From Asterionellopsis glacialis (Eukaryota > Bacillariophyta > Plagiogrammaphyceae > Rhaphoneidales > Asterionellopsidaceae): a stretch of 15,186 nucleotides of DNA. The position numbers and the translations under genes are program-made. Where the stretch lies: positions 1 through 15,186 of the forward strand of contig WKLE02004936.1 in the NCBI GenBank assembly GCA_014885115.2, in the 5' to 3' direction. Below the pieces are notes generated by a model. That model was not told the origin of the DNA. It did not search any database and worked only from the letters and a program-made list of their open reading frames with translations. Shown piece by piece: positions 401 through 14,701 of the stretch; positions within the stretch are counted from its first letter, which is position 1; every line of letters begins with the position of its first letter.

Positions 401-2080
401 ATGGAAGGGATTGAGGTTCTGGCGTATGTCAGTCACCATGAAGAACGGAGGAGAAGAAACATACCAAAACCCGTAGTCCTACAGCCCAAGACCGGGAACG
501 AAATGAAACAAAGTGAAACAATGAGCAACGTCACCAGCTGTAACTCGTCTTCACCCACCAAAAAGAAAAAATTGATTGTTATTGGTGCTGGAATGGCAGG
601 CATCAAGCTTTCTCACACACTTCTTACCAAACAACAGCAAGAACAAGAACAACAAAATTCGGGTAGTACCAACATGAATATTACAATCCTTGATGCCAAT
701 GGATATGTTGGTGGACGAGTACGAAATATGAAAGTATTTGCCACTCATGATGATGAAACAGTAGGATCCGACGCAGGATATACAGTCGAATTGGGTGCAA
801 ATTGGATATCAGGACTTGAATTAACGTATGACAATCCAATCTGGAAATTAGCAAAAGAAGTATCATTGAAAGGACATCTTTGTGACCATGCGGACGCTGC
901 TGCTATTCAAGCCTTGGATAGTCATGGGAATGACATAACAGACGAATATATGGAGGCTGTTGAAAAATTTGAAGATATATGTGAAAAGGCTATAAAGACA
1001 TGTTCTGGACAGGGTATCACAGCACAAACGGATGTGGGAGTTCAATCTTTCTTACATGAATTAGGTTGGGGCAAGGATGAACCTTTAAGACCAGTTGAAA
1101 AACTTGTGGAATATAATGTTTTAGAAGTAGCGATATCAGATGGACTGGAACAATTAAGTACAGCACATAATTGGAAGGAAGGGGCCAATGATATTGAACT
1201 TGGACAAGAAGAATTTTTTGTAGAAGATCAACGAGGTTTTAATTCTATTATGAATGGAATGGTAAATGATATCAACAACTATGAAGATGCCTCCTTACAA
1301 CTCAATACACAGGTAGAAAGGGTTGAGTATGCATTGGAAGCAACAGAATCATCGTCATCACCAGCGGTGAAAGTCACAGCAAGAAATCTTGACGATGGAT
1401 CAATTACAGAGTATTTTGCTGATGCCGTAGTCAGTACAGTAAGTATAGGAGTGTTAAAGGAGGAAAAGATTGAATTTATTCCCCCATTTCCAGAATGGAA
1501 GGTCAAGGCATTGAATGAAATTGATATGTATGTACTTGCTAAAGTTTACGTCAAGTTCCAAAAGGATTTTAGAATAAAGCCTGATGAAGTTATTTTTTGT
1601 ACTGGTAGAAAGGGATATTACCCCCTTTGGAGGAAATACAGATCTACTTCTCAAGATCAGAATTACTTTATGTGTCTACTAGGTGGGTCCGAAGCTAAAC
1701 GAGTAGAATCGTTGACAAAAGATCAGATTAAAGATGAAGTTGAAGAACTCTTTCGTAATGCATTCCAAAAGAACACAACATTAGCTGACGGACCGGCCAG
1801 TAGTGTATTCCGACCATTAGATGTGGCCGTAACGGATTGGTCGCGCAATCCCAGATTCTGTGGCTCATACGCTTGTCTACCATTGAATGCATATGCTCAT
1901 GTACCCTACGACGATTTGGCGAGAGGGCTAACAGGCGCTCCAAACCAGCAAAATGAAGGAGATCCGGTAACCTTACACTTTGCGGGAGAAGGGTTCGATG
2001 ACAAATTCAATGGTTGGGTGCAGGGAGCATATAGATCGGGAGAAAGAGTTGCACAAGTAATCTTGGACAGTAGACCATGA
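401..2080 (+). CDS. FAD-dependent polyamine oxidase (flavin amine oxidase family)
   Basis: The product, 559 aa, should oxidise polyamines such as spermine or spermidine with FAD and O2, giving H2O2 and an aldehyde. Seen: the dinucleotide-binding VIGAGMAG at residues 60-67, the acidic end of the second strand with the GYVGGRVR loop at about 98-108, ELGANWISG at 130-138, and the C-terminal FAD motif HFAGEGFDDKFNGWVQGAY at 526-544. EWKVKALNEIDMYVLAKVYVKF closely follows the maize polyamine oxidase pattern, which places the conserved flavin-site lysine at K381. GYYPLW (405-410) also fits that family. A Gln/Glu-rich insert (about 77-86) lengthens the first Rossmann loop. There are no introns. Residues 1-50 are basic, low-complexity and unlike the family, so M35 (503) or M41 (521) may be the real start. 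No signal peptide or C-terminal SKL-type tag is visible, so the protein is probably cytosolic. Monoamine oxidase or a LSD1-like enzyme is less likely. Confidence 0.9.
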   Translation: MEGIEVLAYVSHHEERRRRNIPKPVVLQPKTGNEMKQSETMSNVTSCNSSSPTKKKKLIVIGAGMAGIKLSHTLLTKQQQEQEQQNSGSTNMNITILDANGYVGGRVRNMKVFATHDDETVGSDAGYTVELGANWISGLELTYDNPIWKLAKEVSLKGHLCDHADAAAIQALDSHGNDITDEYMEAVEKFEDICEKAIKTCSGQGITAQTDVGVQSFLHELGWGKDEPLRPVEKLVEYNVLEVAISDGLEQLSTAHNWKEGANDIELGQEEFFVEDQRGFNSIMNGMVNDINNYEDASLQLNTQVERVEYALEATESSSSPAVKVTARNLDDGSITEYFADAVVSTVSIGVLKEEKIEFIPPFPEWKVKALNEIDMYVLAKVYVKFQKDFRIKPDEVIFCTGRKGYYPLWRKYRSTSQDQNYFMCLLGGSEAKRVESLTKDQIKDEVEELFRNAFQKNTTLADGPASSVFRPLDVAVTDWSRNPRFCGSYACLPLNAYAHVPYDDLARGLTGAPNQQNEGDPVTLHFAGEGFDDKFNGWVQGAYRSGERVAQVILDSRP

Positions 2081-2423: not shown

Positions 2424-4499
2424 TTATATTTGGATATTATAAATTTGTGATAGGGCATCACTATTCACACCAAAGGTTGTTCGGAAAACATCATATAATA
2501 AAAATTGTCCTGCAATGATACTTCCTGACCATATACAACGACTACCTAGCCCACGAAAAAGTGATGTCCAACCTTCTTTTTCAATCATGATGCGACTTCC
2601 TTCAATGACACCTAATCCGACTGATCCTCCTTCTTTTTGTTTTCCTCCCCCTACTACTTCCATGGTTGCGATTTCGTTACTATTACTTTTAGCAACGTAG
2701 GTTAACACTGAATCTGCTGGTTGTGATACAAACGATGATAATGCACCCGAAACACCACCTGCTAGTAAACTAACCGTAAGGGCGGTCCATGTCGCGTCTC
2801 GTAAGGATGGCAATGCGGCATAGATAACTTCACATGTTCGTTCAAAGGCTAAAAATTTAACAGACCCAAAGATGACTTGACGTGTTAGTAGGGATGGGAA
2901 GGATGAATATAACGCTTTCCACCCTTGATTTGGATCTTCCTTGGCAATAATGGCCATGGTACCTAATAAACCTTGTGATTTGTACGTATCTGGTTCAGCT
3001 ACAACACGTATACGTGCTGCCTCGATGGGGGTTAATCCAATAGATGCCACCACTGCGGATAATGCACCCCCGACTAACGCAATATCATTCATGTGTAAGG
3101 TCGCAATATCGGGTGATAGCAATGTTTGTGTCATGAAACGTTTTAAAAATGCATACGTCGGATAGATGGATAAGCCATACCAAAAGTACCCCACAAGTGT
3201 AGCTTGTGCCCCTAAAAATAAACCTTGTATGCCTTCCTCACCCTGGATGACATTCGTGACACCTTGGAATATATTTGTGTATTCTTCTGGATTGGTTTGG
3301 GCACGTGTTTTCACTACATCCAGGGGTATGACAAAGCTATGTGTGACAGCACATGCTGCAGATCCACTCAAGGCAAATAATCCATATGTAAATGGTGAAA
3401 ATTGTGGTGATTCACGTCCCAAGGGTTCCAAGGATAATGGACCAAAGGGTGTGGTGACTGCCGTTTGACCAAGTTCTTCCCCTATACCAATTTCATAGGT
3501 AGATATCAACGGTTCAATGGTATAATAATTGGCGGACGACGAATCATCTTTGGTCTCAATACAATGATATGGTTTTGGTAGCAGTAAAGTTAAATCATTG
3601 GCCAATAGCTCTGTGACATCCGATGACATTGATGATGATGACAAATCGACTGCTGATTGAGATGCTGTTGTAGTAGAGAACGATCGTATCTTCGATATAG
3701 GTTGCTCTTGTGGAGGTAACAATGCAAATAAAATTGATAGTTGCCTCCTAATCTCTGTGTTGTCCTTGTCATTGTCAGTCACATATTTGGAGACAAAGAT
3801 ATCCCATAATGAGTTATAAAATGATACTGTTGATGTTTTAGATGTTGTTTCGTCGTAATAGTCTTCCATGGCAAGTTGTAACGATCTTGTAAAGGATCCA
3901 AAGGAACGTCCAAGTTTCATTTGACGTTTATCTTCGGAAAGTAATGAATATTTAAGTTCTAATGTATTCCACCAGGATTGTGCACCTGTATCATACTGTA
4001 GTAAAAATCGTGATGCATAGGTACAAAAGGATGCGGGGATTTTGATTTTGTCATTCCTGTTGTTGCTTTGCCATTCTTGTTGCTGCTTTTTGGGTGTCCA
4101 TTGACCTTGACCAAGTGATAATGTTTCCAAGGATGACGATGGATTACTAGTAGTAGCAGCAATAGCAGCATTTGCTGAAAGCAAAGGCAGTATGGTTGTT
4201 GCCGATGCTAAAGTTAAAAGTGCATTACGACGTGTCGAAGAATAATCATCTTTTATAAATAATGAGTCATTAGAATCATTTATTATGCCAGACTTTGGTT
4301 TTTCGTTATTGTGGTTTTGCGCAGACAATGACACCGAAGGTTGTGGTGGAATTGTTTTCCTCTGTTTCGTACTAGCAGCAAGATGAAAGTTGGGTGTAAT
4401 CAATCCAAAAGTTTCATTTGCTAAAAGCGATATTACTATTGTCATCGAGACGATGAATAATTTTAGTCCATGATGCATTGTGCAAGAAAAATGTGACAT
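2424..4499 (-). CDS. Plastid-targeted phosphate-carrier-like protein (mitochondrial carrier family) with long N-terminal extension
   Basis: The product is 691 aa. The frame opens further upstream only with a TTG at 4514, so the first ATG (4499) is taken as start. Three carrier repeats fill about 370-680, with signatures PLDVVKTR (392-399), PIEAARIR (491-498) and QPADSV (593-598). The sets THSFVIPLDVVKTR, RQVIFGSVKFLAFERT and SQPADSVLTYV match mitochondrial phosphate carriers (SLC25A3 type) better than other carriers, so phosphate transport is the best guess. The N-terminus is unusual: a hydrophobic signal peptide (about 12-27), then ETFGLITP with Phe31 as in diatom plastid presequences, then a twin-arginine (90-91) plus hydrophobic stretch ending in AIA (112-114), as in thylakoid-lumen presequences. 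Residues 115-365 are unassigned. A typical carrier has about 300 residues. No introns. Plastid targeting and the phosphate substrate are inferred. Confidence 0.85.
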   Translation of the reverse strand: MSHFSCTMHHGLKLFIVSMTIVISLLANETFGLITPNFHLAASTKQRKTIPPQPSVSLSAQNHNNEKPKSGIINDSNDSLFIKDDYSSTRRNALLTLASATTILPLLSANAAIAATTSNPSSSLETLSLGQGQWTPKKQQQEWQSNNRNDKIKIPASFCTYASRFLLQYDTGAQSWWNTLELKYSLLSEDKRQMKLGRSFGSFTRSLQLAMEDYYDETTSKTSTVSFYNSLWDIFVSKYVTDNDKDNTEIRRQLSILFALLPPQEQPISKIRSFSTTTASQSAVDLSSSSMSSDVTELLANDLTLLLPKPYHCIETKDDSSSANYYTIEPLISTYEIGIGEELGQTAVTTPFGPLSLEPLGRESPQFSPFTYGLFALSGSAACAVTHSFVIPLDVVKTRAQTNPEEYTNIFQGVTNVIQGEEGIQGLFLGAQATLVGYFWYGLSIYPTYAFLKRFMTQTLLSPDIATLHMNDIALVGGALSAVVASIGLTPIEAARIRVVAEPDTYKSQGLLGTMAIIAKEDPNQGWKALYSSFPSLLTRQVIFGSVKFLAFERTCEVIYAALPSLRDATWTALTVSLLAGGVSGALSSFVSQPADSVLTYVAKSNSNEIATMEVVGGGKQKEGGSVGLGVIEGSRIMIEKEGWTSLFRGLGSRCIWSGSIIAGQFLLYDVFRTTFGVNSDALSQIYNIQI
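4158..4499 (-). other. Tandem targeting signals in the carrier N-terminus
   Basis: This segment encodes residues 1-114 of the carrier. In order it shows a short basic/polar start, a hydrophobic core, a Phe-containing plastid-type cleavage region around residue 31 (about 4409), a Ser/Lys/Asn-rich transit-like stretch, a twin-arginine at 4227-4232, a second hydrophobic run and an AxA motif. This is the layout of a three-part lumen-targeting presequence in algae with complex plastids. Whether the second hydrophobic part is cleaved or stays as a membrane anchor cannot be told. Confidence 0.55.
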
Positions 4500-5701
4500 G
4501 GTGATTTGTCTCAAACTCCTCGCAGCCAGGACGTGTCAGAGTTTTGTTTCGTAATGAGTTTTGTAGAGCTTACAACGATACCGTTATGACTCATGTGAAC
4601 CAATATAAACTCTTATTGTTCCCTGTTAGTTCTAAACTTGCAGTGCTTGACTATATCAGCCTCTTGCTTGGGGTGTCAAGAGATTCTGCGTCGACAGACA
4701 GAAGAAGGGAAGATAAAAAAGAAAACCGCAGGATTGGCCTCTCGGTCGTCTTCAGTTGTGTTCCCGACATCTCACCGCCTGTTTTCCTTTCTTTCTTTGC
4801 CACCGATCGAACCATGTTGAACTTGAAGTTTTCATAACCCACACAAGGATCGATTGAGTCGGAAGATCGTACCAGGTACGTACCGTACTCCTTCTTGAAT
4901 CTTGAGAGAGAATCTCTTGAGGTCTAGAAGGGATTAGAGCTGGAGTTATTATGGAAGACATACAGACAGAATCCAGTGCAGTCGTGCACCTATGTCTTGA
5001 ATCTGTCGTGTTTCACACTCTTGCTCATCCTATCTAGAAAAAAGAAGAAAAAACTCCCTCTAGTCTAGAGATCCTAGTAAGTAGTCAAAGTCCTACATTG
5101 ACGATAAGAGTGATGTGACATCAATCGTTTTTGTCTTACGTGATTTATAGCAGAAACGCGAATTTTTGGTCTTGCGTACATTTGTTCGTACTTGTGAGTT
5201 CTCTCTAGTTAGACTGGGAAGCACTTGGACCTACAAAAATGATGTTGAGTGTTGTATATTTTAGTCATGCAATCAATCTTGTTTTGTCTAAAGTTAGACA
5301 AAACTGCTTGGAAACGCGTATGTTGATCTTGCAAAAGACCGAAGAAGTCTTCGTTGCGTAAAAAATATCCACGAGGGAGTATTGTTCCAATCGTGTTCCA
5401 ATGTCTCGGAAGTGTCATTATACCGGGTACTCATATGACAAACCAAGTGCCATATCTTCCAAGTTACCATGATTACGTAGGTTTTCATTTGATTTCAAAA
5501 ACGCATGTAATCTGTCATGTCTACAATTATGCTTTTGTTTCGTGGATACATTAAAAGCACACACAAGACCGATGATTGCGAAAATGGATACTGAATTGTA
5601 GTGGAGTAAAAATCATTTCTCATAATTTTTCAAACTCAATTGCAACAAACGTAAAAAACAAAAACTTTAAAAAAAACGAAACGACAGCTCACATACAAAT
5701 C
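4500..5701. other. Divergent intergenic region between carrier and collagen-like genes
   Basis: This 1.2 kb region should hold both promoters. Reading frames here are short, have no recognisable product and mostly lack a proper ATG start. Inverted repeats seen: GGTACGTACC at 4875-4884, GTGCA-GTCG-TGCAC at 4976-4989, TGATGT-G-ACATCA at 5111-5123, and an 11-base perfect inverted repeat at 5281-5304. The last 100 bases before 5702 are A-rich and fit the 5' UTR of the collagen-like gene. No TATA box is assigned. Confidence 0.5.
5281..5304. repeat. Perfect 11-base inverted repeat with 2-base spacer
   Basis: The arms GTTTTGTCTAA and TTAGACAAAAC are exact reverse complements, separated by AG. The match stops at the next base on each side. 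As RNA it could form only a strained hairpin, so a dimeric protein-binding site is more natural. It lies about 400 bases before the collagen-like start and about 780 bases before the carrier start. The function is unknown. Confidence 0.6.
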
Positions 5702-6903
5702 ATGAAGCTTCATATCATTTCATGGCTACTTGTGTCTACAAGCCTTTCCGCCGGTATGTTTCTTACGGTATATTCATTGTCTTTTTAATTCTATAATTTA
5801 TTTCTCAAGATGCTATATTTTATTATATGTTCCATCCATCTCAAAAAATTATATTCCTTTTTCTTTGCGAACTTGCTTTTGCTTTGGTGTATGCAATGTG
5901 ATGTATATGTTTTCAATCCAGGAGGTGTGTTCTCGAGAATCCATTCAGTCAATAACAAATCTGAAAATAAAAGGGTACGTACAAAAACTGATTTGGCTTG
6001 TATTTTTTGGTTGCTTCAAGCACAGCTCAGGTTTTTTCTTATTTGGTTCTTTCTGATGCTTTAACTTATAATATCCATGTATAAAGAGAAATTTGGAAGG
6101 TGGTAATGATACCGTACTAAATGGCTGTGCCAATAATGGAGGAATATTGCGTATGCTCAATGACAATCAAGATTCTTGTAAATCAAATGAAATTGAATAC
6201 ATTTGGAATAAAGCAGGTCCTCAGGGTGAGCAAGGACTACAAGGTGAAACCGGTTCACAGGGTCCGCAAGGTCCGCAAGGTGAAACCGGGCTTCCGGGTC
6301 CTCAAGGTGAACAAGGTCCGCAAGGACAACCAGGTGAAATCGGTCCACAGGGTCCTCAAGGTGAACAAGGTCTACAGGGGACACAGGGTGCAACCGGTCC
6401 ACAGGGTTCTCAAGGTCTACAGGGCGAAGCTGGTCCACAGGGTGAACAAGGGCCTCAAGGTCCACAGGGAATCCAAGGCGAACCAGGTCCACCAGGTGTC
6501 GGTGGTGGAAGTAATAACATCCAGAGTTCGTTCGAGATTGTCACTGGTGGCGAAATCATACCCGATAATGGATACCATCGCAAAATTTATCGTTGCCCTG
6601 AGGGAAAGACGGCAATGGGAGCAGGCCATGCTTTGTTTTGCAACAATGGATGTCCTCTAACGGATGTGGTGTTAAAAGAGCTTCGTCCTGTTGATTACAA
6701 TGGTGTGTATTCATTGATGCTAATTTGTTTGTCTCTTGTATATCCCTCTCTAACTACAGGATCCACTCATTCGTAATTTTTTTCTAAATACAGGTTGGGT
6801 CATTAATGTGAAGCGGTACGGAAGCAGTGGCACCGGCGTCTACAATATCTGGCTAACGTGTGCCGATTTTCGCCCAGAAGCCATCCATATGGGAGGAAAT
6901 TAA
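5702..6903 (+). CDS. Secreted collagen-like protein with Cys-containing C-terminal domain (four exons)
   Basis: I rebuilt this gene from splice sites: exons 5702-5753, 5922-5974, 6087-6702 and 6794-6903; donors GTATGT, GTACGT and GTGTGT; all acceptors AG; phases 1, 0, 1 agree, giving 276 aa and a TAA at 6901. Residues 1-18 are a signal peptide ([18 protein letters not shown]). Residues 19-78 are polar and hold two Cys. Residues 79-171 are 31 unbroken Gly-X-Y triplets, then GVGGG. The C-terminal domain (about 177-276) has four Cys, with [20 protein letters not shown] and IWLTCADF. The rod has Gln in 22 of 31 Y positions, nine Glu and no Lys or Arg, unlike animal fibrillar collagen and more like bacterial or viral collagen-like proteins. 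It should trimerise as an extracellular or wall rod. An AT-rich A-context precedes the ATG. The exact role is unknown, as is whether the C-terminal domain binds a ligand. Confidence 0.85.
6216..6503 (+). repeat. Gly-X-Y collagen repeat, 31 triplets plus GVG
   Basis: The DNA is a degenerate 9-base repeat, mostly ggt-cca/cct-cag/caa and ggt-gaa-caa. The encoded triplets are mainly GPQ, GEQ, GLQ and GET, with no interruption. Pro sits in X 12 times and in Y only four times, so there are few sites for 4-hydroxyproline. Synonymous variation between units suggests the array is not freshly expanded. The whole repeat lies inside exon 3. Confidence 0.95.
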
Positions 6904-7714: not shown

Positions 7715-8569
7715 ATGAAGCTTTTTTTAATTCTTTGCTTCACAACAATCATGGAGTTGTGTGGTGCAGCAGACAGCATGGAAGGACCATGGGCGCCACG
7801 CCCGAAAGATCGTCCCAAGGAGGAATTGCCTTCTATTTCAGTAATTGGTGGGACAGGTCGAATGGGGGTTCATCTATGTGCGGCCTGGGCAAATGCGGGA
7901 TACGATGTTACAATGTGCAGTCGAACCAAGGAAAAGGCGCAGGATATTGTAGATGAATTGCTCTCTGGAAAAGGATATCAGAAAAAGGTGACTGGAGCAA
8001 ACGCGGGACAGGGTGATTACTGCGTCCCAGCATGCGATGCCAAGGGTTGGAAACTTCGAGCAGGGGATAATGCAGCAGCAGCAGATGCTGACATTATTGT
8101 CCTTGGAACTATGTATGAACAAGCTTGGCCTATCTTAGAACCAATCGCTCCCCTTATCAAGGGTAAGGGTAAGACAATTTTGGATATGACCAATCCCTTT
8201 ATGACTCGTCCAGATGGTTATGGCGCAGGTCTACCCAAGGATGGTCCTCAAGCTGGAATTTTGATTCATAAGGATAAACTAGATGATCCAACTACCAAGT
8301 GGGCAGGAGCTTATAAGCATATCTTATGGACGCTCATCCTACCAACGGGACCAAAAAATCCTAGTCGACCGGATATTGAAGTGTTTGGGGAGAAGGAGGC
8401 CGTGGATGTTGTGGTAGAATTGATCTACCGTCATGGATGGCGTCCAATTGTACGAGGTGGTCTTGAAGTAGCACCAGATTATGAAGGAGGAAAAGTTTCT
8501 TTTGGCAAAATTTTTGGCAATATGAAGCGCGAATTTCAACAAGGAGAGAAGTTGAGTGTCGGCTGGTAA
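7715..8569 (+). CDS. F420-dependent NADP oxidoreductase family protein with signal peptide
   Basis: The 284-aa product starts at the first in-frame ATG (7715); the frame upstream begins only with GTG. Residues 1-18 form a signal peptide (MKLFLILCFTTIMELCGA). A Rossmann fold follows: ISVIGGTGRMG (41-51) binds NADP(H), with CSR (68-70) after the second strand as in archaeal F420H2:NADP oxidoreductases. ADADIIVLGTMYEQAW (123-138) and TILDMTNPF (154-162) are the next conserved strands of that fold. The C-terminal half (about 170-284) resembles the compact helical part of the family only loosely. Diatoms are not known to use F420, so the hydride partner is unknown; a deazaflavin, flavin or metal-reductase role cannot be told apart. 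There is no Phe plastid motif after the signal peptide, so secretion or the ER is likeliest. No introns. Confidence 0.85.
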   Translation: MKLFLILCFTTIMELCGAADSMEGPWAPRPKDRPKEELPSISVIGGTGRMGVHLCAAWANAGYDVTMCSRTKEKAQDIVDELLSGKGYQKKVTGANAGQGDYCVPACDAKGWKLRAGDNAAAADADIIVLGTMYEQAWPILEPIAPLIKGKGKTILDMTNPFMTRPDGYGAGLPKDGPQAGILIHKDKLDDPTTKWAGAYKHILWTLILPTGPKNPSRPDIEVFGEKEAVDVVVELIYRHGWRPIVRGGLEVAPDYEGGKVSFGKIFGNMKREFQQGEKLSVGW

Positions 8570-9102: not shown

Positions 9103-12100
9103 TTATGATGTGTGTCGAAATTTTTTGAGTGCCCAAAATGTTAAAACTCTGGCCACTACAAGAATGAAACCTAAGACAATAGCATCTCTTCTAGATCGCT
9201 GCTCACCAAGAGGAAATTCGTTACCAAAGAATACCTCTATAAAATCTTCGACAGTGCCTTTACAGCGTAACTCATCAACGAGATCTATTGATAAAGATTC
9301 ATCGGTGCAATTTAAAAAAGTGGCAAATTCAGAACCTGCACTCGCAAGGACTGTCCGGTTATCATCCGTAAAAATAGATACTATCATGCCTTCATATACA
9401 TAATGGCCTGGTGTGATCCAATACGTGAATTGGAATAAGCCTTCCATAAATTGAGGCCTGACGATGTAACCCGAGAAGAAATTGTTTAGTCCAATAAAAA
9501 CACTTGCTAAAATTTGTGCAGTGCCCATACCTTTCACTAAACACATGAAGGCTTGACCAAAATAAGAATAAATGGCGACGTTGAAGGTGAAGAAGCCCCA
9601 AAAGGCGATGGAACTTCCAAGTTTACCATAAATCCCAGAAACGCTGATGAAAATCGTACAAAATGCGAAGGACGTTAACACAACGAAGTATTTTTCTGCC
9701 ACACCCAAACCCAAAGCTAGTGCGTAACTGGAAACCATACCAGCGGCTTGGTGTCTATAAAAGACATCTCGGATCTCAAGCATCACAGGGAGTACCGATG
9801 TAATAGATAATACACCCGAAATGATGAAAGAGATGAACATAGTAGCAAGAACACTAGTGATTTCCGTCTCAGACATTACCTCTGGTCTTCTGTTGGATAA
9901 GAATACTGCTCCAAGGATAAAAGCAATGAAAGCTGAAATAAAGATTCGAGCCAAATTATACGCTGGCGAACGCCAATAAATGGTCTGTAATCTGGCACTG
10001 TATTGCATTCGACGAGTATGAGATGGAGCAGCAAACTGTGTTTCAAACTTCACTTCCTTGGAGGGGTCTCTTTTTTCTTTTGCGTCCATTATCTTTTGTG
10101 TGATATATTCTGATTCATCCGATCCATTGTATACCTCTGAAAAATCTTTTCCATCTTTATCTGATCCCTTACTCATTACTTTTAACATCCAATTTGCTGG
10201 ATTTTCACCACGTTCAATTTGAGTTCCACTACGTGCTTCGAAGTACTTGACAAGGTGAGCTGATTCTCTTCCTAATTCTCCATGGAATACAACCCGCCCG
10301 CCCTTTTTCAACAAGAGAAGATCATCCTATTTTGAATGCAAAAATTAAGTTCAAGTAATTTAGAGCATGTATCCCCAAAAAAGGCCACATGAGAAATCTT
10401 TCGTTTGAAACTTACAAACATATCAAAGACAGCAGAAGACGGCTGGTGGATGGTGGCAATAACTGTACGCCCAGAGTCTGCTATGCGTCTAAGGGCCTTT
10501 GTTACAATCAAAGCAGCGCGAGCATCTAATCCAGATGTTGGCTATGAAGCACACAATATAAAGATTTTTAATAGAGATCCATAAATCAGAAATAGTGAAT
10601 AATATTGTATCGGCACAAGCAATCTTACCTCATCTAAGAAAATAATAGATGGAGAAGCAGCCAATTCCACTGCAATCGAAAGGCGCTTCTTTTGCTCAAA
10701 ACTTAGACCACCACTTTCGTCGTTGCCCACGACAGAATTTGCTAAAGGGGTGAGCTCCAATGTTTTCAAAACTTGGTCAACGAATCTTCTCTTGTCCTCG
10801 TCGCTCTGGATTGCTGGGTTAGATGAGTCTAATCGAAGCCTTGCAGAAAACAAAACAGTCTCTCGCACAGTGAGAACAGATGACTGAACATCAAACTGCT
10901 CGACATAGCCTGAACAACGGCGAAAGGCTGCTTCCTCTTGTTCGTATCCGTTAAGCAGAATTTCGCCAGTTATCTCTCCAGTGTTTTTCCTAAGAGCAAT
11001 ACAATCCTAGAGTAGTAAAAAAAGAAAAAATCAACAAATCGTCTCTCAGAAAAAAAAACGAAACCGCTTCTCCAATCTCTAGAAACTGCTTGGCAAAGAC
11101 CCGTTAAAATACGATTACGTACCATCAAAGTAGTTTTGCCTGCTCCACTCTCGCCCATCAAGGCACACATACGGCCTGCCTCAAAAATTCCATTAGCATT
11201 GTTTAAAAGTCTGATGGTATCGCTCCCCGTTGACGATTCCACATCATAGCAAACGTCTTTGAAGGTGAGCGTAACTGGAATGAAAGGAATGCTGACCTCC
11301 TCACTTAACTCCTCTTCTTCTTTAGATGCCTCCTCTTCTGGGACATCATCGCCGCTACTAGAACCTTTCCTGTCACCATCATGACGAACCATGAAGAGTC
11401 CAAATCCCGTAAGATATAAGCATATTCCAAAGAATACAATGAGATACACAAAGCCATACACCACCCATTCTTTTTGGAATGGTTCGCCGTCAATTGTGAA
11501 TCCTTGAGAGATCAGAATGAGATCCCCTTTACTATACGTTTCTCCTTCAGCAATATCATTATATTCATCACTTTGAAACTCATTTACTACTAGTGCCCTG
11601 TAGGCCCATGCCTGCATATCAACAAATGAAAGGAGGAGCAATGTCAGATGATCTTTGAGTTCCCTAAACAAGGGATTGTATCAATTGCATTACTGGAATC
11701 TTACCAATGGAGTAATCCAATGGATCCATATGTAGTAGCTGGGAATAACATCTGGGAAGACTATTTTGGGGCAACAAACAGACAAAAAAGGCATCGTCAG
11801 CAGATCTGAAAGAAAGGTTGAAAATATTCCATGTACCTTCTATAGTAGAAAGGGGTTTCCTTATAACATAATATCTTACCAATAAAACCACAGAAGAGGA
11901 CATTGAACAATAATACACAGGCTGAAAGGGCTTGTACGTTTGAGGTACTGGGTGCCACTGCTGCGAATATACTCAAGGATTGATTCATCACAAGTGTGAA
12001 TAAAAAGAGGATGCAAATAAAGGTAAAGTAATTTGCAGCTGTTGGGGCAAGACCGACCATCCAATAAATTAGTGTACCAAAAACAAATACATCAAGTAAT

Positions 12101-14701
12101 GCTTGGGGTATCAAGGCAATCGCCTTCCCAATGGCGTATGGAAATGCAGGGTAGAAATTAGCATCCTTGTGCCTATAAAAAATAATACGATCTTCAACTT
12201 GTGCCGGTGCAGCGACCATAGCTCCTGTTTCAACACGTGATGAAATGTTAGACAAAGAGACCATTCGGGTGTTAAATAATGGAAAAAGGTCGAATTGGAA
12301 ATCGGTATCATGTGAAAGGATTGAGAGAAGAAGACTGCAGCATGTATATAGCATCCATTGAAACACACAAACAAGAAAGTTGAAGCTTACCAAGCATAAT
12401 GAATAGTGTTCCTTGGAATAAGACACCAAATACTGATATGGTATCATCTGTTTGATAATATACAGCACCCACAGATACACCCATAATACAATTCTTCGCA
12501 AAGTTGGCAATTAAGAAACGTCTATCTCTTACCCATATAGTCAAGTTACGGGACACGTTTAAATATGTGGATCGTACAAATGAATTTTGAAATTGTTGCA
12601 TTAGTGGTATTGTTGCATCACCATCATCCGTCAAAGACACTTTAGATGAGTCAGCAAAAGAACGTCCAGTAGTAGGTGAGTCTCCTCCTTTATCAACCTT
12701 GTGATAACTATGAGTCACATTGTCGCTGATGCGTTCGATTAAAGATTTTTTGGGAACGTTCACCCATTCTGTATCCCATCCTTTGGTTAAATCATATTGT
12801 ATTTGTTGTCCAAATTTAGAATGACGAAATGCATCTGCTAATTCAGATGTTGTAAATGGTTCTGTACGAACATTATTGTTATTATTGGGTGGTTGAAATA
12901 ATTCAGCACCATCCGGCGTTGATAACATTTGTAAAAAATCAGCCACATCCATGGTATCAGGTGCACGGTATCCCAACGATGCAAAGTAATCTTCAACTTG
13001 ATCAAGTGGTCCAGCATAAATTAATTTGCCCTCTGATAACAAAATTATTTCATCAAATAAACTTACTGTTTCAGGACTAGGTTGTAACAAGGATACTAAA
13101 CGTGTTTTCTTCGTTAACTTGGTGAGGTAACTTAATTGAAAGCAAATGTCGTAGGTAGAAGCAGCATCAAGACCTGTTGAAATTTCATCACCACCTAATT
13201 AACATTTGTAAAAACATTAGAAGTGAGAAAAGAAGATTGTTTGTCTAAACAAAAAACAAAATACTGTACATGATATAATGTACTACTTACAAAAAATAGG
13301 TGCAGCGCATTGTAACATTTCACCTACAGTCACACGTCGACGCTGTCCACCACTGACACCCCGTACATCTGAATTACCTACAAACGTATCGGCTACATGT
13401 AATAATCCCAAGGCTTCCATGTTTAATTTTACACGTAGTCCTTCTTCATCCATTTTTGTAATGCACTTGTAGGCTTCTTCATTATCCTTGTAGGGTCTAC
13501 CTTCGGCATGGGAACCACCCGATTTACATTGAAATGCAAAATCAAATGTTTCCTTGACAGTTAATCGTGGTGCATGACGATCTAATTGTTCGACGTAGGC
13601 AATAGCATTTTTAATATGTATTTGTTTGTTATTAATTGTTTTCAGTCTTCGTAATAATGTGTCTTCCTGTTTTGTGTGTTTGGTTGGATGGATGTTGTGT
13701 CAGTGAGGGGTGGTAGATAAATATATATACAGGGATGGTTTGAAGAGAACCAAGAACAACAATAAGAACAACAAAACAGAGCACCACTCCCGAATACGAT
13801 TACTTACCGATAACATTAGGTTATTGTATTCAATAGTACCTGTACTTTTGGCATTATTTTCAGTGGATAATCGTCCAGATATAGCTTTCAGGAGTGTTGT
13901 TTTACCACTGGCCGGTGGTCCCAAGATTAAATACATTTTACCTGGTTTCAAGACTAAGCTTATATCATCCAAGATTGTTTTTTCGACGAGTGCTGGTTTG
14001 GCACCCCATAGAAGGTTTTCGCCGTTTTGGTATCCTTGAATCAATTTCCGCACCTTATATAGAGGACTTTGATTGAATACAGTCTTGATCTTCTTGGCAT
14101 TGGGATCTAATTGTGCAGTGTAAGACAAATTGCATAATCGTATTTCAACTTGTAACTTTTCATCACCCATGGATGGAAAGTGTTTTTTAAGTTGATCACC
14201 ATACATGTTTTGTACTTTTTTTAAAAATTCCATATTTTTATCTAATTCTTTTTTCGTATTAGAATCTAATGCTTCAAGGACAGACTTTGTAATATGCGGT
14301 GCTCTGGGTGATGGCATTTTTGGCTCACTTTCTACATCCACAAGATTTTCTTCTTCTTTCTGTTCTTCTTCTTTTTCATAATCAATGCAAGGGGGGGCGC
14401 TGCTTGACAATGCTTGATCCAAGTAACGTTGACTGGCACGATTTCGTTTCAAGATATTACGAAAATGATCTTGACGGGTATCATTTGGTTTGATATTCCG
14501 TAATGATCCACCAGGTGATAGCATGTATGATCGGAATTCAATAGATTCTTTTAAATTCCCTTCACTATCAAATGCCACTCCCGCTGTTGTGGATTTGGAT
14601 AATTTTGTGGAGGATGGATTTTCGTCATCCACACCATTGTCATCTTCACCAACATCAGGTGCTGGTTCCAAAGCTTTTTCAGAAGTATCAATTTGCATCA
14701 T
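9103..14701 (-). CDS. Full-size ABCG/PDR-type ABC transporter (nine exons)
   Basis: Exons on the minus strand: 14701-13808, 13666-13291, 13194-12391, 12224-11880, 11805-11705, 11611-11123, 11006-10629, 10541-10416 and 10326-9103. All introns are GT-AG with agreeing phases, giving 1578 aa. Order is NBD1-TMD1-NBD2-TMD2, the pleiotropic drug resistance layout. NBD1: Walker [10 protein letters not shown] (261-269), signature VSGGQ (402-406), Walker B IFCGDE (422-427). Its switch His is replaced (SLLQPSPE), as is usual in plant PDR NBD1. NBD2: GESGAGKTT (993-1001), LSFEQ (1104-1108), FLDE-PTSGLD (1126-1135), His1161. VRDRRF (645-650) opens TMD1; the first 180 residues are acidic and disordered. 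Both Walker A Lys are present, as in plant rather than fungal PDRs. The protein should export hydrophobic compounds using ATP; the substrate is unknown. The gene ends with a transmembrane helix and FRHTS. Confidence 0.9.

Follow-up and report, generated by a model that had tools for sequence, protein, structure and literature searches.

Gene organization and predicted protein

The window analysed here is a stretch of 15,186 nucleotides from Asterionellopsis glacialis (GenBank assembly GCA_014885115.2, contig WKLE02004936.1). At positions 5702 to 6903 of its forward strand lies a gene predicted to encode a secreted collagen-like protein, for which an earlier note, made from the sequence alone, had proposed four exons and a product of 276 residues. 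The four-exon join comprises 276 codons with no internal stop and ends in TAA, and all three predicted introns are of the GT-AG type, with an AT content of 67-73%. The model is thus a good fit to the sequence, though not a unique one, and its splicing is predicted. As had been claimed, only the central exon is visible as a long frame: the sole unspliced long frame in the right phase spans 6093-6776, with 227 amino acids and a TTG start.

The Gly-X-Y rod described in the earlier note has been confirmed, with 33 uninterrupted triplets and a match to PF01391 at an E value of 2.8e-16 (59.5 bits, against a curated cut-off of 27.2). PF01391 is the only Pfam family listed for the protein up to E 1, and no further animal-collagen domain was found beside the rod. 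The rod contains no Lys, Arg or Asp, Pro occupies 4 of its 33 Y positions, and its DNA carries internal tandem repeats of 27 and 54 nt. It is preceded by a head domain with the pattern NGC...GGILR...CKSNE...WNKAG (residues 46-78) and followed by a tail (residues 178-276) that closes with ...GW...LTCA. No family of Pfam or NCBIfam was matched by either flank in the scans performed, and the same was observed for 33 tails of the bacterial class described below in a Pfam scan. These flanks had been described as a Cys-containing linker and an unspecified globule. End domains do exist, but both match conserved domains of a bacterial class by profile and by invariant columns, and both head cysteines (C49 and C66) are encoded by exon 3 rather than by the exon 2 linker. 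The features are listed in Table 1.

Table 1. Predicted features of the collagen-like gene and neighbouring genes in the window
Feature	Positions	Strand	Content	Support
Exon 1	5702..5753	+	Start codon, signal-peptide-like stretch; aa 1-17 plus the first base of codon 18	Frame, GTATGT donor, crude signal-peptide rule
Intron 1	5754..5921	+	168 nt, GTATGT...CAG	Splice signals
Exon 2	5922..5974	+	Short polar linker, to aa 35	Phase and splice signals only
Intron 2	5975..6086	+	112 nt, GTACGT...AAG	Splice signals
Exon 3	6087..6702	+	Head, collagen rod, most of tail	Codon log-odds +87, PF01391
Head domain	6117..6215	+	aa 46-78; C49, G54, R57, C66, W75	Bacterial head profile, invariant columns of five proteins
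Gly-X-Y rod	6216..6512	+	aa 79-177 (33 triplets), rich in Gln, net charge -9	Triplet count; 27- and 54-nt repeats in the DNA
Tail domain, first part	6513..6702	+	aa 178-240; C205, G208, G213, G215	Bacterial tail profile, invariant columns
Intron 3	6703..6793	+	91 nt, GTGTGT...CAG, within tail domain	Not unique; rival acceptor before 6760
Exon 4	6794..6903	+	Remaining tail (W242, C263), stop codon 6901-6903	Tail profile, codon score
FAD amine oxidase (neighbour)	401-2080	+		
Mitochondrial-carrier-family protein (neighbour)	2424-4514	-	Long N-terminal extension	
F420-type oxidoreductase (neighbour)	7715-8569	+	Hydrophobic start	
ABC transporter (neighbour)	9103-14701	-	With introns	

Relation of the flanks to bacterial collagen-like proteins

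Before testing, we took the two flanks to resemble the ends of bacterial collagen-like proteins. By sequence, each flank matches a conserved domain of a class of bacterial collagen-like proteins, arranged as a head (C..G..R..C..E..W), a rod and a tail (C..G..G.G..W..C). A degenerate DNA pattern that covers the second half of the head, and in which the tail was not used, matched 87 stretches in bacterial genomes, while its exact form had no match in viral contigs. Within the window it matched once, in this gene, and in none of 200 shuffles. The 80 listed among the 87 records include members of Actinobacteria, Chloroflexi, Acidobacteria, Myxococcales, Cohnella and Granulosicoccus. The part of the diatom head outside the pattern scored 16.1 bits against a profile of 71 bacterial heads, a value surpassed by 1 of 5,000 shuffles. 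The diatom tail has low identity to the bacterial tails; it scored 12.7 bits against a profile of 25 of them, exceeding all 5,000 shuffles, and 21.7 bits against a profile of 57, exceeding all 20,000. Inside the whole spliced protein the profile scores were 17.9 and 11.6 bits, with the best of 7,339 reversed decoys reaching 9.9 and 7.8.

The profiles were built from the 80 listed stretches (L007-L086), which gave 85 open frames, including two (L029 and L012) unlike the class. A motif filter written after the window tail had been seen was passed by 31 of the 85 and 6 were dropped by eye, so that the 25-tail profile holds no window row and was guided by the window only through this filter. The 57-tail set adds 32 tails from loci found with a profile (A1) in which the window tail is one of 11 rows, with 14 of the 46 rows skipped as duplicates, partial or non-family. 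The head profile was obtained by dropping identical or short heads together with L012 and L029.

Of 7,994 entries scored in a database search with the whole protein, 5,746 were hits, for the most part owing to the rod. Among the best 120 of these, 8 carry the head pattern, 9 have a tail above 12 bits and 4 have both. The best protein of the same architecture aligns over 93%, and four proteins (P0119, P0033, P0120 and P0025) align with the diatom protein from end to end. Eleven residues are invariant in the five aligned rows: C49, G54, R57, C66, W75, C205, G208, G213, G215, W242 and C263, with W242 and C263 encoded by exon 4. Protein searches with the head region alone gave no candidate, and those with the tail region alone gave five, none at E 10 or better.

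Among genomes drawn from the phylum of L041 (Nitriliruptoraceae), 37 of 296 had a match to the tail profile; for the phylum of L078 (Granulosicoccaceae) the figure was 4 of 398, both counts including the seeds. The tail domain is not bound to collagen, since at the loci analysed 23 open frames with fewer than 6 triplets (duplicates included) equal or exceed the score of the diatom protein. Tails without a collagen rod, some in multiple copies, occur in bacterial genomes at L104/L106/L108 (three tail matches within one 375-residue frame), L140 (two matches), L115 and L116. At four Microbispora loci (L034, L046, L050 and L052), two or three head-rod-tail collagen-like frames are clustered; their heads are similar or identical and their tails differ. 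The head and tail domains are found in several bacterial phyla, and the Pfam and NCBIfam scans gave no curated model for them.

Support for individual exons and junctions

The exons differ in how firmly they are supported. Exon 3 has a codon log-odds score of +87 in frame, with the five other frames negative. Exon 4 scores +4.8, a value matched by 0.7% of 3,355 stop-free intergenic stretches, although one antisense frame also scores 4.8. The score of exon 1 (-0.3) is the best of its six frames, yet 29% of the controls equal it. Exon 2 has the best of its three forward frames, with 45% of the controls reaching its score and one antisense frame scoring higher; it is backed by phase and splice signals alone and is unproven. 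The four-exon model of the earlier note thus stands in its open join, GT-AG introns and exon 4 support, while it is not unique, and exon 2 and the exact junctions are unproven. As for its signal peptide claim, the start of exon 1 is signal-peptide-like by a crude rule, which is passed by 6 of the 275 open ATGs in the window (probably including exon 1's own), but its codon score does not rise above the controls and the exon is unproven. A hydrophobic stretch precedes the head in 78 of 80 bacterial relatives.

In the ranges scanned, 568 GT-AG combinations keep the frame open, so that the frame alone proves little. Homology supports exon 4 only, which is also backed by the proteins of the same architecture. 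With the 57-tail profile, the score rises from 11.8 bits for read-through to 21.3 bits for the 6702/6794 join, which supports the claim of a terminal Cys-containing exon without fixing its exact junction. Joins of the acceptor at 6760 with donors 6665, 6668, 6689 or 6704 score 19.9-21.4 bits on the same profile, the 6668/6760 join (21.4 bits) lying marginally above 6702/6794. With the 25-tail profile, the 6702/6794 join falls outside the best 25 of 147 junction options. It is thus only the 57-tail profile that separates exon 4 from read-through, and the donor and acceptor are not fixed by it. An intron of 91 nt has been favoured over one of 55 nt, since by-eye placement in the ABC transporter gene nearby gave three introns of 89, 87 and 116 nt.

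Two competing acceptors are seen in 6705-6793, CTAACTACAG before 6760 and TTTTTTTCTAAATACAG before 6794, which could yield forms of 288 and 276 amino acids. The longer form, made by a 6704/6760 splice with a 55-nt intron, is possible.

Host and genomic setting

The assembly comprises 40.3 Mb in 1,503 contigs, of which the window is contig C1306. Another part of the assembly encodes a silicon transporter (PF03842 above the cut-off, E 7e-82), identifying the host as a diatom and bearing out the algal host of the earlier note. In a collagen-family search, the window gene was the only convincing collagen-like gene in the assembly, and its tail matched only itself in its own genome. A second collagen-family match (C205:65738-65899; G000, L005) was over the cut-off and has been rejected; it is an 81-residue frame, probably the antisense of a 482-residue frame, the latter containing SPNGP repeats and a Ser/Pro-rich stretch. 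A third match, on C322, was below the cut-off and contains a stop.

Origin of the gene

The gene is real and somewhat unusual. It probably sits in the nuclear genome of the diatom and encodes a secreted collagen-like protein of bacterial type, having been acquired from bacteria by horizontal transfer and subsequently split by three introns. Bacterial transfer followed by intron gain is favoured because the class is spread in bacteria, one gene was found here and one intron lies inside the tail domain; we infer from this that transfer ran from bacteria to the diatom. Among the papers listed in literature searches, judged by titles and the beginnings of abstracts, none dealt with a diatom collagen-like gene.

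A home-grown algal collagen, in which Gly-X-Y triplets expanded within a diatom secreted protein and the bacterial likeness of the ends is convergent, would be in keeping with the tandem repeats in the rod DNA and the low identity of the tail. Two separate flanks nevertheless match in order and position with their invariant residues kept, and none of the 7,339 reversed decoys reaches the profile scores, making this origin unlikely. A viral or phage source, such as a tail fibre or a collagen of giant viruses, in place of direct acquisition from a bacterium is similarly improbable. PHROG tail-fibre families do match, the best, though weak, PDB match of a 33-tail profile is a phage tail fibre (E 0.039), and the models nearest to the tail in Foldseek are those of phages and viruses (best E 4.9e-3). 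For the diatom protein, however, the best 25 of 44 PHROG rows show matches chiefly over the rod, with a few extending to residue 50-61 or 198, and the exact head pattern is absent from the viral contigs while it matches 87 stretches in bacterial genomes. A tblastn search against 50,697 phage records, with the low-complexity filter on, gave no match, and the neighbouring genes scanned are cellular.

The named carriers of the class encountered in this analysis are all bacterial, which could point to bacterial contamination or to a fragment of bacterial DNA assembled together with that of the diatom. This explanation is highly implausible, given that AT-rich GT-AG introns break the coding sequence, one of them within the tail domain, and that the flanking genes include one for a mitochondrial-carrier-family protein and one for an ABC transporter that itself contains introns. 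A decayed, untranscribed copy might account for an exon 2 that the codon score does not distinguish from non-coding sequence, but 276 open codons, intact repeats and family-invariant residues at both ends leave such decay with little credibility. A bacterial origin followed by splitting of the gene is retained, and the data suggest that an alga adopted a three-stranded rod of bacterial design.

Proposed product and significance

The product would consist of an exon 1 signal peptide, a short linker, a small head, a Gln-rich acidic rod of 33 triplets and a C-terminal beta-domain. Splicing, secretion, trimerisation and disulphides are all predicted, the last between C49 and C66 in the head and between C205 and C263 in the tail. 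By analogy, trimer formation is likely: the C-terminal domains of three chains would associate, set the chain register and start the triple helix, which would then zip toward the head with little need of hydroxyproline, given the few Pro residues at Y positions. The resulting secreted rod would be about 28 nm long, with three resistin-like caps. A role outside the cell is likely, and one may guess at adhesion or matrix cross-linking.

If expressed, the gene would offer a testable example of a diatom that has taken up an extracellular rod protein of bacterial origin, a single gene being found per genome. The possible likeness of the tail to the PCSK9/resistin module likewise makes the origin of that fold testable. 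A bolder and rather doubtful proposal is that a bacterial collagen with a resistin-like module became the spliced, secreted diatom rod, the bacterial tail being a true relative of the resistin/PCSK9 fold and thus an old bacterial trimer cap reused in eukaryotes.

Comparison with known systems

Two tails of the class, the diatom tail not among them, show a fold match to the resistin-like beta fold, with no significant Foldseek or sequence match. No Pfam match links the resistin and PCSK9 C-terminal module to the class tail, and no sequence match was significant. The PDB profile searches disagree, a 22-tail profile listing PCSK9 at E 7.9 and the 33-tail profile not listing it, and a PDB sequence search with the tail gave unrelated enzymes (best E 0.085). 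The 33-tail profile also gives weak matches to entries for perforin-like protein 1 (E 0.11 and 0.6); these and the phage tail fibre, together PDB 5ouo, 6d7a and 7vul, may hold the same small fold. Mammalian resistin and PCSK9 are not known to have a collagen rod. Of two marks of animal collagens, Y positions rich in Pro that could be hydroxylated and a further Pfam domain beside the rod, the diatom protein shows neither.

Blastocystis is another stramenopile, kin of the diatoms. Bacterial-type collagen-like proteins, some with signal peptides, have already been reported in it, so that the general idea of such proteins in eukaryotes is not new (PMC5608401). The Blastocystis proteins, likened here by description rather than by sequence, have 63 Gly-X-Y repeats against 33 in the diatom protein, and the passage that gives this count does not describe their flanks (PMC5608401). 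The Legionella Lcl (NF046116) and streptococcal Scl (NF038329) adhesins resemble the diatom protein in combining a collagen rod with a non-collagen end domain, and Lcl has been described as a trimer with a trimeric C-terminal domain (PMC11162425). Their models matched the rod only, with 65.4 and 70.6 bits against curated cut-offs of 500 and 325.

The closest resemblance in architecture is to the bacterial head-rod-tail class (e.g., L041, L080 and L078; P0119, P0033 and P0120), with a head of the form C..G..R...CK..E....WN and a tail of the form CP.GK...GGG...W...C. The diatom protein, with its predicted hydrophobic start, and this class share the order of start, head, Gly-X-Y rod and tail, with the invariant residues kept. 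The diatom gene differs in having three introns, and its product has a longer linker ahead of the head, a rod lacking Lys, Arg and Asp, a further Cys pair (C220/C224) and a longer C-terminus.
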